From NCBI RefSeq assembly GCF_004341235.1, contig NZ_SLUP01000001.1, positions 248,001 through 312,000 on the forward strand: DNA of 64,000 nt, written 5' to 3'. The notes below the pieces were generated by a model. It had not been told where the DNA came from, ran no database searches, and was given only the letters and a program-made list of their open reading frames with translations. This DNA comes from Mariniflexile fucanivorans (lineage in GTDB: Bacteria; Bacteroidota; Bacteroidia; Flavobacteriales; Flavobacteriaceae). The position numbers and the translations under genes are program-made. Shown piece after piece: positions 1 to 27,495 of this stretch. Within the stretch, counting starts at the first letter, position 1. Each line of letters starts with the position of its first letter.

Positions 1-3000
1 TAATCACTTTTTTAGGAGTTCTTCCCGCCAATTGCTCTTGGGTTTTTTCGTTAGCCATCACCGCTTCTTCAATTTGTTTTGCATCAAAATCCATAGGTAA
101 TTCTAGCGTGAAACGCATTTTTCCGTTGAAAGAAATCGGGTAGTTTTTGCTGCTTTCTACTAAATGACTCGCATCAAAAATTGGGAAAGCTGCTGTTGAA
201 ATCGATTCGTTATGCCCTAATTGGCTCCATAATTCTTCAGCAATATGTGGTGCGTACGGCGATAATAAAACCAATAAAGGTTCTAAAATGTCTTTAGACG
301 TGCATTTTTGAGCCGTCAATTCATTTACCGCAATCATAAAAGTTGATACCGAAGTATTGAATGAGAAATTCTCGATATCTTCTTGCACTTTTTTAATGGT
401 TTTATGGAGGGTTTTTAAGGCCTCCCCTAACCCCTCCGAAGGAGGGGAAACGGCCCCACCTAACCTCCCCGAAGGGGAGGAACTCGTTACGTAAAAAGCT
501 CCGTTTTCTCCTTGGTGATATAACTTCCATAATTTTTTCAGAAAATTGTGAACACCTGTAATACCTGCGGTATTCCAAGGTTTGTATTGTTCTAAAGGCC
601 CTAAAAACATTTCGTATAAACGTAAACTATCGGCGCCATAATCAATACAAATTTGGTCTGGATTGACGACGTTGTATTTGGATTTGGACATTTTTTCGAC
701 TTCGCGTTTTACTTTGAATGTTCCATCATCTTCACTAATGAATTTTGCGTTAGAATAATATTCTCGCCAATTTTTGAATTGTTCAATATTTAATTCATCT
801 GAAGAGTTTACAAAAGAAACATCAACATGCGTTGGGTTTAACTGCATTGATATTTCTCCTCCCAAACTAATTTCAGAATCAGGAAAAATTTCATTTAAAG
901 TATTCAAGAAAAAGTCTTTAGTCTTTTTAGTTTCTTCAGCATTACCTTCCTTAATTTTTTCATATTTAGATTTTGTTATGAAAAAATACGGCATCTTAGG
1001 ATCCAAAATATCAAAACCTTTGTCAGGGTTCGACATAACCATCCAAGAAAACCTATAAACAAAAGCACTAGTCCCCAAAATCATTCCTTGGTTAATCAAC
1101 TTTTTAGCATATTCGTCAACAGGTACCACACCTTTATCGAACAAGAATTTTTGCCAAAAACGAGAATACAATAAATGCCCTGTGGCGTGCTCGCTTCCGC
1201 CAATGTATAAATCGACATCTTTCCAATAATCCAAAGCTTCTTTGCTCGCAAATGCTTCGGTATTACCCGGATCCATGTAACGGTTAAAATACCACGAACT
1301 TCCTGCCCACCCTGGCATAGTGTTTAACTCTAAAGCCCCACCTAACCTCCCCGAAGGGGAGGAACTCTCAAACGCTTCTTTTGATACTATCTTAGCATCA
1401 TCACCATACTGCAACCAATGCCATTCTTTGGCGTTTCCTAATGGTGGTTCACCCGTTTCTGTTGGTAAATATTTTTCAACTTCAGGCAATTCTATAGGCA
1501 GAAATTTTTTATCTATCATCTGCGGCATACCAGTCTCATCATAATACACTGGGAATGGCTCGCCCCAATAACGTTGGCGACTAAAAACTGCATCGCGCAA
1601 ACGGTAATTGGTTTTTCCTTCGCCTTGACCTAGTTTTTCTAGTTCTTGAATGGCTTTTTTTGTGGCTTCTTTATAATCTAAACCATTTAAAAAATCCGAA
1701 TTTTTCAAAACAAAACCAGCCTTTTCAGTAAAAGCCTCAGTTTCTATAAGGTTTAAAGAGTCCTCAGTTCCCCCTTTGGGGGTTAAGGGGCTAAAAATAT
1801 TTGGAATTGGGATGTTGAAATGTTTTGCAAAATCATAATCACGTTGGTCGCCACATGGCACGGACATCACCGCCCCTGTTCCGTAACCTGCCAAAACGTA
1901 ATCGCCAATCCAAACCGGAATGGGTTGTTTTGTGAACGGATGCTCTGCATAGGCACCTGTAAATGCACCCGAAATGGTTTTTACATCGGCCATTCTATCG
2001 CGTTCGCTACGTTTTGCAGTTGCCAGAATGTAGGCTTCAACGTCTCCTTTTTGTGCTGGGGTTGTTATTTGTGATACTAGTTCGTGTTCTGGAGCAAGCG
2101 TCATAAATGATACACCGAAAATCGTGTCCGGACGTGTTGTGAAGACTTTGATCCCCCTAACCCCCGAAGGGGGAATTTGCTCACTCTTACGAGAATCACT
2201 CTTATGGCATTCTCTGTGTGCTAATTCATTTTGAATTTTTTCTAAAACATTTTCTATGTTTCCTAAAACTTCTTCATTTGTAAAACGAACGACTTTATAA
2301 TAATCATTTTCTAAAATCTCCGTACGTTTTGCATCTTCTTCAAGCTGAGATTCATGAATTTTACCATCAACTTCTACAATTAATTTTTTAGAAAGACACA
2401 CAAAATCAACAATAAAATCACCGATTAAATGCTGTTGTCTAAATTTGGAATCCAAATTTTTATTTCTAAGTTGTTCCCAAAGTGCCGCCTCTGCTAGAGT
2501 AGGTTTGGCACGCATATCTCTTGCACGTTCAAGCAACAAATGAGAATTATTCCCACCCGTCATATAACCCGCACGATTCTGCGAACCTGCTTTCTCTTCC
2601 CCTCCGGGGAAGGATAGGATGGGGAATACTACACTTGCTCCAACCGATTTTCCAATCCAGTTACGCTGACTTTCTTTTAAAGAATCGGTCCAATCTATTT
2701 TATCTAAGCCTTGAAGTAAACGTTCTGCATATGCAGAAATGCGCATACTCCATTGGGTCATTTTTTTTCGGATAACCGGATGCCCTCCACGTTCGGAAAC
2801 ACCATTTACTATTTCATCGTTCGCTAAAACCGTTCCTAATGCAGGACACCAGTTCACTTCAGTTTCAGCTAAATAGGTTAATCTGTATTGTAATAATATT
2901 TGTTGTTGTTTTTTGGAATCAAAAGCATTCCAATCTTCCGCAGAAAATGACATGATATCAGCATCGCAAACCGCATTTACTTTTGAATTTCCTTCCGAGG

Positions 3001-3493
3001 CAAACAGTTTTTCTAAAGTAGAAATGTCTTCAGCTTTATTGGAGTCGTTATTATACCACGAATTGAATAGTTGAATGAAAATCCACTGCGTCCATTTGTA
3101 ATAACTGGGGTCGGACGTTCTAACTTCACGAGACCAATCGAACGAAAAACCTATTTGGTCTAATTGCCGTCTATAGGTTTTTATATTTTCAGCAGTCGTT
3201 ACCGCAGGATGTTGACCTGTTTGAATGGCATATTGTTCAGCCGGCAACCCGAAAGAATCATACCCTTGTGGATGCAACACATTAAAACCTTGATGGCGTT
3301 TGTAACGCGCATAAATATCAGAAGCGATATAACCCAACGGATGCCCAACATGTAAGCCCGCACCACTGGGGTACGGAAACATATCCAATACATAAAATTT
3401 AGGTTTTTCTGATTTATTTTCAGCTTTAAACGTTTGGTTTTTTGCCCAATAGTCTTGCCACTTTTTTTCGATTTTATTGAAATCGTACGTCAT
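1..3493 (-). CDS. leuS: Leucyl-tRNA synthetase with in-frame palindromic and DUF559 insertions (partial, 3' end outside window)
   Basis: Class I aminoacyl-tRNA synthetase that charges tRNA-Leu in the cytoplasm. The start is the ATG at 3493-3491 (MTYDFNKIEKKW), and the frame stays open for 1164 codons to the left edge. The HIGH-type motif HVGH lies near residue 50, the CP1 editing motif TTRPDT at about 452-457, and KMSKS at about 934-938. The protein is longer than I expect for a Bacteroidota LeuRS (roughly 900-1000 residues). The excess is partly a block at about 291-447 containing a DUF559 domain, plus short inserts near 568-578, 710-720 and 1004-1025. All are encoded by GC-rich palindromes, and I translated each codon by codon and found it in frame with no stop. 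Catalytic motifs look intact, so I read this as a functional gene rather than a pseudogene. Confidence 0.95.
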   Translation of the reverse strand, partial: MTYDFNKIEKKWQDYWAKNQTFKAENKSEKPKFYVLDMFPYPSGAGLHVGHPLGYIASDIYARYKRHQGFNVLHPQGYDSFGLPAEQYAIQTGQHPAVTTAENIKTYRRQLDQIGFSFDWSREVRTSDPSYYKWTQWIFIQLFNSWYNNDSNKAEDISTLEKLFASEGNSKVNAVCDADIMSFSAEDWNAFDSKKQQQILLQYRLTYLAETEVNWCPALGTVLANDEIVNGVSERGGHPVIRKKMTQWSMRISAYAERLLQGLDKIDWTDSLKESQRNWIGKSVGASVVFPILSFPGGEEKAGSQNRAGYMTGGNNSHLLLERARDMRAKPTLAEAALWEQLRNKNLDSKFRQQHLIGDFIVDFVCLSKKLIVEVDGKIHESQLEEDAKRTEILENDYYKVVRFTNEEVLGNIENVLEKIQNELAHRECHKSDSRKSEQIPPSGVRGIKVFTTRPDTIFGVSFMTLAPEHELVSQITTPAQKGDVEAYILATAKRSERDRMADVKTISGAFTGAYAEHPFTKQPIPVWIGDYVLAGYGTGAVMSVPCGDQRDYDFAKHFNIPIPNIFSPLTPKGGTEDSLNLIETEAFTEKAGFVLKNSDFLNGLDYKEATKKAIQELEKLGQGEGKTNYRLRDAVFSRQRYWGEPFPVYYDETGMPQMIDKKFLPIELPEVEKYLPTETGEPPLGNAKEWHWLQYGDDAKIVSKEAFESSSPSGRLGGALELNTMPGWAGSSWYFNRYMDPGNTEAFASKEALDYWKDVDLYIGGSEHATGHLLYSRFWQKFLFDKGVVPVDEYAKKLINQGMILGTSAFVYRFSWMVMSNPDKGFDILDPKMPYFFITKSKYEKIKEGNAEETKKTKDFFLNTLNEIFPDSEISLGGEISMQLNPTHVDVSFVNSSDELNIEQFKNWREYYSNAKFISEDDGTFKVKREVEKMSKSKYNVVNPDQICIDYGADSLRLYEMFLGPLEQYKPWNTAGITGVHNFLKKLWKLYHQGENGAFYVTSSSPSGRLGGAVSPPSEGLGEALKTLHKTIKKVQEDIENFSFNTSVSTFMIAVNELTAQKCTSKDILEPLLVLLSPYAPHIAEELWSQLGHNESISTAAFPIFDASHLVESSKNYPISFNGKMRFTLELPMDFDAKQIEEAVMANEKTQEQLAGRTPKKVI
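421..485 (-). repeat. Double GC-rich palindromic insert inside leuS
   Basis: Two adjacent palindromes, CCTCCCCGAAGGGGAGG-like and CCCCTCCGAAGGAGGGG-like, each followed by a CCCCACCTAA or CCCCTAA tail. They are read in frame in leuS as SSSPSGRLGGA followed by VSPPSEGLGEA (residues about 1004-1025). The first unit is the same sequence as the insert at 1335-1367. Confidence 0.9.
1335..1367 (-). repeat. GC-rich palindromic insert inside leuS
   Basis: This copy matches the first unit of 421-485 almost base for base (core CCTCCCCGAAGGGGAGG plus GCCCCACCTAA). It is translated in the same leuS frame as ESSSPSGRLGGA (residues about 709-720), just before the conserved LNTMPGWAGSSWY segment. Confidence 0.9.
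1761..1792 (-). repeat. GC-rich palindromic insert inside leuS
   Basis: A variant palindrome (CCCCCTTTGGGGG plus TTAAGGGG) read in the leuS frame as SPLTPKGGTEDS (residues about 568-579). It follows FNIPIPN, a conserved position in LeuRS where a short loop is usual. Confidence 0.85.
2152..2626 (-). mobile_element. Putative palindrome-bounded DUF559 element inserted in leuS CP1 domain
   Basis: Palindromes at 2596-2626 (CTTCCCCTCCGGGGAAG type) and 2152-2175 (CCCCCGAAGGGGG plus CCCCTAA) bound a segment encoding a DUF559 domain, all in frame with leuS (residues about 291-447). The domain shows the family signature: R-x-x-PTLAEAALWEQLR (about 328-343), KFRQQHLIGDFIVDF (350-364), EVDGKIH (374-380) and VVRFTNEEVL near 405. 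D363 and E374-x-D376 fit the active-site spacing of PD-(D/E)XK/Vsr-like nucleases. The insert sits between the NWIGKSVGA strand and the VFTTRPDT editing motif, where ordinary LeuRS has only a short linker. No intein splicing motifs are seen. That it is mobile is inference. Confidence 0.75.
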
Positions 3494-3514
3494 CCTTTTT
3501 ATTATAAATATTAA

Positions 3515-3600
3515 CGTCATTGCGAAAGAGGCACGACTGTGGCCATCATTTAATATGAAACTATAATTAAACAGATTCCCACGCTTCGCTCGGAATGACG
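3515..3600. repeat. Interspersed GTCATTGCGA-type repeat with inverted ends
   Basis: The ends are CGTCATT and AATGACG in inverted orientation about 80 bp apart, with the internal motif GCGAAAGAGGCACGAC and a CCCACGCTTCGCTCGGAATGAC arm. It is related to the repeats at 26675, 26861, 38880 and 45720. It lies between leuS and the divergent DMT transporter gene. Confidence 0.65.
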
Positions 3601-3729
3601 AATTTGAAAGCGCAAATTTAAGGTTTAAATAGAAATATAGACAGTTAATCCACAAAAAATGAATTTCTAAAACCGATTATAAAATATTAGCCTATTTTTG
3701 AGTAAGCAATTAAAAACACACTCAAATTC

Positions 3730-4647
3730 TTGATTAAATCCAATTACAAAGCCCATCTTGCCTTATTTAGTGCTAATTTAATTTATAGCATCAATCATTT
3801 TGTAGCCAAAGGGATTATGCCCGAAAAAATAAATGCAACACCGCTCGTTTTTTTTAGAGTTTTAGGAGCAGGAATTCTGTTTTGGTGCGTTAAATTTTTT
3901 ATTAAAGAAAAGGTTGAAAAAAAAGATTTTTTCAGACTTATACTTTGTGGTTTGTTGGGAGCTTCATGCAATCAACTTACTTTTTTTCATGGTTTAAGCT
4001 TAACATCTCCCATAGACACATCGATTATTATGACTTCGGCTCCTGCCGTTGTTTTTGTATTTAGCGCCATTATTTTAAAAGAAAAAATTACCAATTATAA
4101 ACTATTAGGCCTTAGTATTGGTGCCATTGGAGCTATAAGCTTAATCTGGTACGGGCAAGTTACGCATGGAAACAGTTCATTTATTGGGAATCTATTGGTT
4201 TTTCTTAATGTTTGCTTCTTTTCGTTGTATCAAGTGGTCGTAAAACCTTTAATGAACAAATATCATTTTATAACCATCATCAGTTGGGTGTTTTTATTCG
4301 GGTTACTGTTTATAATTCCATTTGGACTAAAAGATGTTATTTACAACACGAATTACGAAGCTTTTAATTTAAACACATACCTCGTTATTGGCTTTGTTAT
4401 TGTATTTACCACATTTTTTACATTTCTTTTCAATATCTATGCGCTTAAACAGGTTTCTCCATCGGTTGCTGGTAGTTATACCTATACACAACCTGCCATA
4501 AGTTTTATTATTGTTATATTACTAACGTTACTATTCAACAATAAAACATACAGTGCAGACATCAATATTTTTAAAATAATTAGCTGTTTTATGGTTATTG
4601 TTGGTGTTTACTTAATTAGCAAAAAACCTAAAACTGCTATAACCTAA
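3730..4647 (+). CDS. EamA/DMT-family inner-membrane transporter
   Basis: A 305-residue hydrophobic protein with about ten predicted membrane segments arranged as two EamA-like halves (residues about 5-145 and 150-300), the layout of drug/metabolite transporters. Typical features are the PVVFVFSAIILKE-like end of helix 4 in the first half and the SYTYTQPAISFIIVI stretch in the second. The substrate cannot be read from sequence. The start taken is TTG at 3730, because the next Met falls inside the first hairpin. The gene is transcribed alone, divergently from leuS. Confidence 0.8.
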   Translation: MIKSNYKAHLALFSANLIYSINHFVAKGIMPEKINATPLVFFRVLGAGILFWCVKFFIKEKVEKKDFFRLILCGLLGASCNQLTFFHGLSLTSPIDTSIIMTSAPAVVFVFSAIILKEKITNYKLLGLSIGAIGAISLIWYGQVTHGNSSFIGNLLVFLNVCFFSLYQVVVKPLMNKYHFITIISWVFLFGLLFIIPFGLKDVIYNTNYEAFNLNTYLVIGFVIVFTTFFTFLFNIYALKQVSPSVAGSYTYTQPAISFIIVILLTLLFNNKTYSADINIFKIISCFMVIVGVYLISKKPKTAIT

Positions 4648-4703
4648 ACATTTAAAATATTAAGTCTTGCAACAACATTTTCGATATTATTTAGTTTAAT
4701 AAA

Positions 4704-4732
4704 TTGAGATTGATTATACTTTAGTATTTTTG
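4704..4732 (+). promoter_or_regulatory. Bacteroidota-type promoter for ftsX
   Basis: TTG (4704-4706) and TATTTTTG (4725-4732) separated by 18 bp match the TTTG / TAnnTTTG consensus of the Bacteroidota primary sigma factor. The ftsX ATG is 21 bp downstream. Confidence 0.55.
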
Positions 4733-4753
4733 CAGCATTAATCCACTATTTTT

Positions 4754-5632
4754 ATGAGTTCATCTTTTGAAAGAGATCAAAAACGCCGCCTAATTTCCTC
4801 ATACTTTTCGGTGGTTTTGAGTATTGCATTGGTTTTATTTTTGTTAGGTTTATTAGGTATGTTAGTTTTAAATGCCAAAAAAGTATCCGACCACTTTAAA
4901 GAACAAGTGGTGGTTACCATATATTTAAAAGAAACCGCCAAAGAAGTTGAGATTAAACAGCTCGAAAAAAGTTTGGCCATGGCAGATTACGTAAAATCGA
5001 TTGAATACGTTTCAAAAGAAAAAGCTGCCGAATTTTTAAAAGAAGAAAACGGTGAAGATTTTATGGATTTTGTGGGCTACAACCCGTTGCAAAACTCCAT
5101 TGACGTACACTTGAAAGCCGATTTTGTAACTTCTGAGCACCTTGAATTGATTTCGGAAGAAGCTACTTCAAAAACATTTGTTGACGAAGTAACATACGAT
5201 AACGACCTTGTAAACCTAATGAACGAAAACGTTAAAAAAATAACTTTTTGGGTGTTAGTAATCAGTGGCATCTTCACTTTAATAGCCGTTTTATTAATTA
5301 ATAGCTCCATTAGGTTAGCTGTTTATTCCAAAAGATTTACCATAAAAACCATGCAAATGGTGGGCGCTACTAAGCAGTTTATTCGTCGCCCATTTGTTTG
5401 GAAAAGCGTGCGTTTAGGCATTATTGGTGCGGTTATCGCTTTAATAGGCATGGCCATTGTACTGTATTACATTAACAAAACATTTCCAGAATTAGGCTTA
5501 ATGAATACCCCTATTTTGGTTGTATTACTTTTTGCCGTCATATTTGCATTAGGCATTATTATAACCTGGATAAGTACCCATATTGCCACCCAACGTTTCT
5601 TGAATTTAAAAACCGATGCTTTGTATTATTAG
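4754..5632 (+). CDS. ftsX: Cell-division protein FtsX
   Basis: A 292-residue permease-like subunit of the FtsEX complex, which couples ATP hydrolysis by FtsE to activation of septal peptidoglycan hydrolases. It has the FtsX topology: an N-terminal helix (about 15-38), an extracytoplasmic domain (about 45-170), then three C-terminal helices in an FtsX-fold. The segment VKSIEYVSKEKAAEFLKEE is the usual start of the periplasmic lobe. The ftsE partner is not adjacent, which is common in this group. DUF3098 follows after about 100 bp. Confidence 0.93.
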   Translation: MSSSFERDQKRRLISSYFSVVLSIALVLFLLGLLGMLVLNAKKVSDHFKEQVVVTIYLKETAKEVEIKQLEKSLAMADYVKSIEYVSKEKAAEFLKEENGEDFMDFVGYNPLQNSIDVHLKADFVTSEHLELISEEATSKTFVDEVTYDNDLVNLMNENVKKITFWVLVISGIFTLIAVLLINSSIRLAVYSKRFTIKTMQMVGATKQFIRRPFVWKSVRLGIIGAVIALIGMAIVLYYINKTFPELGLMNTPILVVLLFAVIFALGIIITWISTHIATQRFLNLKTDALYY

Positions 5633-26810: not shown

Positions 26811-26990
26811 TATTTTGGGCAATTGCTAAAGCACCGCGCTTTCCGCTATATCTTTTTAAAACGTCATTGCGAGGAGGAACGACGTGGCAATCTGCTGATT
26901 TTTATTTCTAACCAAGTTTTTAGCCCATTTTGTTTTTTAAAAAGGATGTCGCTACAATCGCTATTGCACCACCAACCACGGTTTGTTACC
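26811..26990 (+). repeat. Composite interspersed repeat, copy 1
   Basis: It consists of a GGGCAATTGCTAAAGC arm, CGCTTTCCGCTATATC, CGTCATTGCGAGGAGG (26861-26877), a variable stretch of about 50 bp, and an AAAAAGGATGTCGCTACAATCGC arm. The same order recurs at 38828-38990, and in inverted orientation at about 45638-45748. The arms are near-inverted (CTTTTTAAAA against TTTTTTAAAAAGG). It precedes vsr. Confidence 0.7.
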
Positions 26991-27021: not shown

Positions 27022-27495
27022 ATGGATTACAACGAAGAAAAAATAAAAGTCCCACGTTTCAATGAAGCTTCTGGTTTTTATACCACAAAAAAACGCTCGA
27101 AAATAATGAGCAAAATTCGTGGCACAAACACCAAACCCGAAATGCTTTTCAGAAAAACTCTTTGGAAAAAAGGTATTCGTTATAGAATTAACAACAAAAA
27201 ACTTCCCGGAAAACCAGATGTTTCCATTCAAAAATACAAATTAGCCATATTTATAGATGGTGAATTTTGGCACGGATATAATTGGGACGAAAGAAAAGTA
27301 ACGCTCAAAGCCAACCGCAACTTTTGGATCCCAAAAATTGAGCGAAACATGCAACGTGATAAAGAGGTAAACCAACAACTTGAAAATATGGATTATACCA
27401 TTTTCAGGTTTTGGACCCAAGAAATTAAAACCGATTTAAACCGTTGCATCAATGATATTCTGGTTCATATCGATATGCACGATATCAATTATTAA
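27022..27495 (+). CDS. vsr: Very short patch repair endonuclease (Vsr), orphan
   Basis: A 157-residue Vsr-family nuclease that nicks next to T:G mismatches arising from deamination of 5-methylcytosine. Motifs: SKIMSKIRGTNTKPEMLFRKTLW (about 26-48), PGKPDVSI (about 62-69, catalytic Asp), IFIDGEFWHGYNW (about 76-88) and FWIPKIERNMQRD (about 98-110). No DNA cytosine methyltransferase or partner restriction enzyme is adjacent. It is followed convergently by the S46 peptidase gene. Confidence 0.9.
   Translation: MDYNEEKIKVPRFNEASGFYTTKKRSKIMSKIRGTNTKPEMLFRKTLWKKGIRYRINNKKLPGKPDVSIQKYKLAIFIDGEFWHGYNWDERKVTLKANRNFWIPKIERNMQRDKEVNQQLENMDYTIFRFWTQEIKTDLNRCINDILVHIDMHDINY

Follow-up and report, generated by a model that had tools for sequence, protein, structure and literature searches.

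The window analysed here is a stretch of 64,000 nucleotides from the genome of Mariniflexile fucanivorans. At its left end lies leuS, the gene for leucyl-tRNA synthetase (LeuRS), which the list of open reading frames gives as a single open frame on the minus strand, reading leftward from position 3493 and running off the window edge. The gene contains an in-frame nuclease domain and several palindromes:

2..3493, past the left edge of the window, minus strand: leuS, leucyl-tRNA synthetase, the host gene (list of open reading frames, Pfam)
2596..2622, minus strand: upstream palindrome, core 2596-2612 with a C-rich head CCCCATCCTATCC (palindrome scan)
2153..2623, minus strand: the whole in-frame insert, approximately amino acids 291-447 (alignment of relatives, ends set by eye)
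2546..2569, minus strand: GYMTGGNN, the N-terminal signature of in-frame copies (motif count)
2222..2530, minus strand: DUF559 (PF04480) nuclease domain, amino acids 322-424 (Pfam E=2e-34; fold)
2354..2407, minus strand: catalytic stretch D363 ... E374-x-D376-G ... H380 (invariant in 35 LeuRS)
2152..2180, minus strand: downstream palindrome, inverted relative to the upstream one, core 2161-2173 with a GGTTAGGGGG tail (palindrome scan)
1768..1795, minus strand: solo palindrome in frame in leuS, core 1770-1782, encoding SPLTPKGG (palindrome scan)
1335..1367, minus strand: solo palindrome in frame, exactly 33 nt, core 1346-1362, encoding SSPSGRLGGA and preceding LELNTMPGWAG (palindrome scan)
420..485, minus strand: two tandem solo palindromes in frame, cores 431-447 and 464-480 (palindrome scan)

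The insert takes the place of a loop of 15-16 amino acids seen in insert-free LeuRS, in the CP1 linker; one insert-free relative that spans the same stretch is the locus L087. Pfam placed DUF559 between the tRNA-synt_1 and LeuRS editing domains, found the anticodon domain as well, and scored PF04480 at 118.2 bits against a gathering cut-off of 20.6, so that the domain belongs to the DUF559 family. A preliminary description of this DNA had proposed a continuous in-frame insertion at 2152-2626 that holds a complete DUF559 domain and leaves the host frame intact, and our analysis agrees: one open frame runs through the insert, at approximately 2153-2623, with neither a frameshift nor a stop. Its further statements, that the nuclease residues are kept and that palindromes sit at both junctions, were likewise confirmed, the former by the 35 aligned insert-bearing LeuRS and the latter by the two cores listed above. 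LeuRS gave a single match in the whole M. fucanivorans genome, and the window's only LeuRS gene bears the insert; that gene is therefore presumably functional. The model of the full-length LeuRS had a mean pLDDT of 65, too poor for structural claims.

The absence of intein or intron splicing, also proposed earlier, was upheld. Pfam returned no Hint splicing domain in either the LeuRS protein or the RecG protein that carries a second insert (see below), and no RNA family of group I or group II introns was found up to an E-value of 1 in positions 1-5000 of the window. Since there was neither a Hint domain nor a catalytic RNA, and the frame was open throughout, we rejected the intein and intron readings.

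We then characterised the nuclease. With a profile built from 48 in-frame copies, only two solved structures were found at E<0.001: 3hrl (1.6e-29), an uncharacterised protein (NGO0050) and the nearest solved relative, and 3r3p (5e-7), the homing endonuclease I-Bth0305I, a mobile-intron protein. An AlphaFold model of the DUF559 domain (mean pLDDT 78) led to the same two structures, which Foldseek ranked first (3r3p at E=2.6e-4 and probability 1.00), while Vsr was far weaker (0.13). The catalytic domain is thus homologous to an EDxHD homing endonuclease. Only four of 133 in-frame copies, two HemD fusions and two degenerate LeuRS copies, lacked an intact D..E-x-D-G..H motif; it was kept in the other 129. 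An N-terminal signature, which reads GYMTGGNN in the window and was defined after looking at the data, occurred in 110 of 124 in-frame copies (N-terminal fusions excluded) and in none of 37 free-standing ones. Nonsynonymous divergence lay far below synonymous divergence in the two copies within one MetH gene (pN 0.055, pS 0.69), among RecG copies (median pN 0.12 and pS 0.72 over 28 pairs) and among LeuRS copies (pN 0.28 and pS 0.70 over 231 pairs, with pS near saturation).

The palindromes of leuS are concentrated more than chance would allow. All six G/C palindromes that one scan detected in the 64-kb window lie within LeuRS, and 0.8 per window are expected from 10 Markov shuffles. The ends of the palindrome unit read AAAGCCCCACCTAACC; by eye, neither a GTAG nor a CGTC tag stands beside the cores, and no clear target-site duplication was visible at the RecG and LeuRS sites. 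The single-strand hairpins predicted for the leuS palindromes are of modest strength, with z between -0.4 and -2.0. In 24 of 107 LeuRS-containing loci, the LELNTMPGWAG motif follows a peptide of the P(S/L)G type; some genomes contribute more than one locus to this count, and a few of the peptides are doubtful. Just upstream of the leuS start, at 3515-3600, a palindrome of another kind forms an inverted pair (CGTCATTGCGA ... GGAATGACG); its tag is CGTC-like.

Occupancy of the LeuRS site varied among relatives. LeuRS was detected in 243 of 249 Flavobacteriaceae genomes and carried a DUF559 insert in 19 of the 249, with a broken frame in one of them (G112, a 64%-complete draft); within the genus, three of six genomes were occupied. 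Alignment with related genomes thus revealed insert-free LeuRS, and occupancy at this one conserved site is patchy. The insert region measured 143-216 amino acids with DUF559 and 15-46 without it. Two loci (L056 and L058, from genomes G113 and G002) hold a degenerate DUF559-like insert that has neither palindromes nor catalytic residues; these are possibly remnants or domesticated forms. On a FastTree host tree of 91 LeuRS rows, the insert label required 15 changes, at least 11 of them forced by starred branches, compared with 24.7 for shuffled labels. The rows comprised 62 occupied ones (including the two degenerate) and 29 unoccupied ones, occupied sites being over-sampled by design. The preliminary description had assumed that an ordinary LeuRS has only a short linker here. 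On reading the 29 empty sites, we found this to hold for 15 rows, with loops of 15-16 amino acids (RIQNSEFRI is common to three of them), but not for approximately 10 others, which contain other repeat-like peptides such as ASEAKQS and HAELVEAS; four rows were unclear. The DNA behind two kinds of these loop peptides reads GTCATTGCGAGCGAAGCGAAGCAATC and GTCATGCTGAGCATGTCGAAGCATC, which look like palindromes of the CGTC type. With repeat-like peptides of other kinds in approximately 10 of the 29 rows, the CP1 loop of LeuRS looks like a general insertion hotspot, used by several palindrome families.

LeuRS is not the only host. The M. fucanivorans genome contains a second in-frame DUF559, inside RecG, where it is found in one of the six genomes of the genus; the five congeners have instead a short KLWHKN(T/S)SPPH or KLWQKNATPPH loop in a 707-aa open frame. 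In the family, PF04480 matched in 119 of 249 genomes. By hand count, 139 listed matches had an E-value of 1e-20 or better, and 46 of these lay in open frames of at least 300 amino acids: 19 in LeuRS, eight in RecG, eight in HemD, seven in MetH (in six genomes), and one each in HisD (C-terminal), IleRS, a PALP-family enzyme (N-terminal) and a type ISP restriction-modification gene. Hosts were assigned mostly by common flanking motifs, with Pfam run on one or two per host. The HemD copies are N-terminal fusions located between hemC and hemD (hemC by eye). In the eight genomes concerned (L009, L017, L019, L024, L032, L037, L038 and L043), DUF559 precedes HemD in the same frame, with HEM4 seen by Pfam in L009, and HemD may there be made as a nuclease fusion. 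Throughout the phylum, 222 of 395 Bacteroidota genomes matched, with inserts in HsdR and in other methyltransferase or restriction genes; one further host (L134) is HsdS-like by eye, while Pfam found nuclease families only. A search of named genomes returned, among the best 80 loci of at least 534 relatives, 59 LeuRS, nine UvrD, five ValRS, three RecG, two HsdM, one PurL and one DegT, and also one free-standing gene on a LeuRS locus; 18 of these loci were neither LeuRS nor RecG, and eight of the 18 were run through Pfam. Wherever several copies were compared, each host had one insertion site, except for PurL, with two different sites of which one is C-terminal (L152), and MetH, with two sites. 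One MetH gene (L035) carries two DUF559 stretches. Judging from these matches, the insert belongs to a family with more than a dozen host genes, a wider phenomenon than the preliminary description had supposed. That description had likened the insert to a homing-type element. The likeness found partial support, in that a homing-endonuclease catalytic domain is the second-best solved relative and that insert-free relatives exist.

When the LeuRS copy was used as the query, three of 50,697 phage records and 39 of 72,556 plasmid records matched, all below 60% identity. With so few and such distant matches, carriage of this copy by phages or plasmids was rejected for these collections.

How faithful are these lineages to their sites? 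The host label changed 19 times over a tree built from 170 DUF559 domains, compared with an average of 89 in 100 shuffles. The RecG, UvrD, HemD and HsdR copies each fell on one side of a branch. Two label changes each were needed for MetH site 1, ValRS, PurL and HsdM, three for a mixed restriction group, five for free-standing copies and six for LeuRS. The tree suggests that DUF559 lineages largely keep to their site and at times change gene. No recent transposition was caught: the two copies in the MetH gene that holds both MetH sites are 82% identical in DNA, with synonymous sites near-saturated. At the LeuRS site, the locus L039 and two Capnocytophaga loci (L223 and L227) have LeuRS genes that are approximately 91-93% identical, whereas their whole inserts are only approximately 41-44% identical (distances of 0.07-0.09 for the hosts and 0.57-0.59 for the inserts). 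Such unlike inserts in such close hosts suggest separate arrivals at one site. Overall, insert and host distances were only moderately correlated (Spearman 0.44, 60 rows), and by this measure part of the history of the LeuRS insert is therefore vertical. An AU test rejected the host tree for the inserts (55 of 62 occupied rows; five degenerate or long-branch rows and two others left out), with p=8.5e-5. Since the same happened to two 110-column segments of the host itself, taken as controls (p=0.003 and 0.04), we did not count this test as proof of conflict between insert and host.

We also quantified the palindromes beyond the LeuRS site. Among 140 in-frame copies, the two flanks aligned better in inverted orientation in 97, in direct orientation in 37, and equally well in six; among 36 free-standing copies, nine were inverted and 27 direct. 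The direct-repeat excess of the free-standing copies arises partly because they sit in direct-repeat arrays that contain palindromes. In L147, L153, L065, L155, L031 and others, free-standing DUF559 often lies between palindrome-containing direct repeats of up to approximately 375 nt. We considered these repeats as target duplications and dropped the idea, since on inspection they were often palindrome-repeat arrays or the starts of neighbouring paralogous genes. On both sides, strong hairpins within 200 nt flanked 33 of the 60 in-frame copies and 22 of the 35 free-standing ones; single control windows gave 11 of 228 and 14 of 128, respectively.

In the M. fucanivorans genome the palindrome pattern matched 22 times, some matches overlapping, and the controls gave none. 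Three matches lie within LeuRS, and another is carried in frame by a gene (L120) whose domains include MeaB and methylmalonyl-CoA mutase. By their ORF context, several others are at gene starts or ends, others are intergenic, and one forms an inverted pair of approximately 100 bp. Palindromes thus occur also in pairs and, as a dispersed repeat, alone. For statistics we used a strict pattern, whose control was zero in all 249 genomes; a loose pattern was dropped, its reversed control giving matches too. The strict palindrome was present in 29 of the 249 genomes. DUF559 at E<1e-9 was found in 24 of these 29 carriers (and so not in the other five) versus 67 of 220 other genomes, an odds ratio of 11 with p=8e-8, kinship being ignored. 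The 249 genomes span 235 genera, and all these association statistics ignore phylogeny. PF01797, the RAYT family, matched in 96 of the 249 genomes, in 55 of them at E<1e-9. RAYT was commoner in palindrome carriers (14 of 29) than elsewhere (p=0.001), but with DUF559 fixed the association gave p=0.13 and 0.15. The association of palindromes with DUF559, on the other hand, gave p=3.5e-5 in RAYT-negative genomes and a borderline p=0.054 in RAYT-positive ones. Across the 249 genomes, these co-occurrences suggest that the palindromes track DUF559 more than they track RAYT transposases. When coordinates were compared in the 249 genomes, no strict-pattern match lay within 300 bp of a listed DUF559.

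The element shares traits with several known systems. EDxHD homing endonucleases are a nuclease family that has spread into conserved genes (PMC3943268), and I-Bth0305I is the second-best solved relative of the insert by both profile and fold. Unlike the insert, I-Bth0305I is a mobile-intron protein of an extended, multi-domain DNA-binding form, whereas the insert sits unspliced in the reading frame, ends in palindromes and comes with neither intron nor intein. Inteins are likewise inserted in frame in conserved proteins, often with a homing nuclease, but the insert has no Hint splicing domain, and its flanks are palindrome-encoded linkers. The free-standing 3hrl protein NGO0050 and VsrA have the DUF559 family in common with it. 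Rickettsia palindromic elements (RPE) are reportedly the subject of papers by Ogata, which PMC10969869 cites. Such an element is an in-frame ORF insert of approximately 150 bp without an enzyme, whereas the insert here is approximately 470 nt long and encodes a nuclease; the solo palindromes here do resemble Rickettsia palindromic elements in behaviour. The latter and intragenic REPs lie in frame in housekeeping genes, including those for tRNA synthetases and repair helicases, at times at approximately the same site in related species (PMC3733652), and excerpts of PMC3733652 and PMC10969869 mention no nuclease ORF for them. The arrangement also recalls a REPtron, with a nuclease-type gene between palindromes and scattered solo and paired non-autonomous copies. 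The gene of a REPtron, however, is the HUH/Y1 transposase RAYT, and the gene flanked here is DUF559, which places the insert outside the REPtrons. No RAYT is known to us that is embedded in frame in a host protein. GTAG repeats border the RAYT genes (PMC3733652), whereas the palindromes here have by eye neither the GTAG nor the CGTC tag and are linked to DUF559. In-frame palindromes in genes are therefore already known, and nuclease-bearing ones go unmentioned in the excerpts of PMC3733652, PMC10969869, PMC12907096 and PMC3943268. Among the openly licensed PubMed Central papers retrieved for DUF559 and related subjects, a collection outside which most subscription journals lie, no title or abstract described palindrome-bounded in-frame DUF559 elements.

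We consider it probable that the insert belongs to a family of nuclease elements, DUF559-based (Vsr/EDxHD-like) and bounded by palindromes, which live unspliced inside conserved bacterial proteins in a homing-like manner. In the mechanism we propose, an element lying in frame in a loop would be made with its host protein as one chain, in which the nuclease would be retained and fold as a loop domain, presumably at the surface. The nuclease would cut or nick insert-free alleles, and repair from an occupied allele would then place a copy of the element at the corresponding site (homing). On rare occasions, the palindromes at its ends could let the element move into a new gene, and shortened copies would stay behind as inverted pairs or solo palindromes; the palindromes would then be both the moving ends of the element and its debris. 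More tentatively, DUF559 might be the nuclease dedicated to mobilising a further superfamily of REP-like palindromes, with an undescribed homing lifestyle in which the elements invade conserved loops of essential proteins and stay there as unspliced, permanent extra domains; this extension we regard as possible, somewhat short of probable.

Two rivals remain live. The insert could be a domesticated module that entered long ago, descended vertically with many losses, and serves LeuRS, RecG or MetH, for instance in nucleic-acid binding. Such a history would fit the grouping of inserts mostly by host gene, the low pN relative to pS, and the survival of L056 and L058 as remnants. We nevertheless think it unlikely: the inserts are patchy even within the genus, the LeuRS tree forces at least 11 changes, what unrelated hosts conserve in the insert is the nuclease site itself, and strong hairpins persist on both sides of 33 of 60 in-frame copies. 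Rather unlikely, too, is a reading in which RAYT or another transposase moves the palindromes and DUF559 is simply an ORF caught between two of them, as in a REPtron. M. fucanivorans speaks against it, with no PF01797 match in its draft genome despite 22 pattern matches (some overlapping), and so does the loss of significance of the RAYT association once DUF559 is fixed. The presence of PF01797 in 96 of 249 genomes, the richness of palindrome carriers in RAYT and the GTAG repeats flanking RAYT genes (PMC3733652) are what this reading has in its favour.

It is far less plausible that a Vsr-like repair or defence nuclease is parked in essential genes in an addiction or anti-phage role. DUF559 does occur in VsrA of Caulobacter, a Vsr-like protein for which the excerpted text describes no host fusion (PMC12907096), and restriction-modification genes are among the hosts; these hosts could, however, reflect an insertion preference, and most copies are in housekeeping genes, LeuRS above all. 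An assembly or annotation artefact deserves almost no weight. Although the assembly is a draft of 29 contigs and the LeuRS copy of G112 has a broken frame, the recurrence of the same junctions in dozens of other genomes, including named isolates, refutes this reading.

The usual view is that homing elements can enter conserved genes without killing the host only by way of introns, inteins or free-standing genes. The DUF559 family suggests another way of entry, by in-frame translation and folding as a loop domain. It would also make DUF559 a candidate for the missing enzyme of palindromic repeats to which none has been assigned (see Di Nocera et al.). For protein evolution, it would offer a route for nuclease domains into synthetases, helicases and methyltransferases, and the inserts would expose insertion-tolerant loops of essential enzymes.

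Beside the two in-frame copies, the M. fucanivorans genome has one free-standing DUF559 gene and a weak match that is Vsr-like by eye. The free-standing gene (L003, 1462-1890) adjoins an HsdR-like gene, by eye, and a 31-nt copy of the start of the HsdR-like gene lies upstream of it. In the window, a 157-aa gene at 27022-27495 is Vsr-like by eye and matches DUF559 weakly (E=3.3e-4); a further CGTCATTGCGAGGAGGAACGACG repeat is found 5' of this gene, at 26861-26905.
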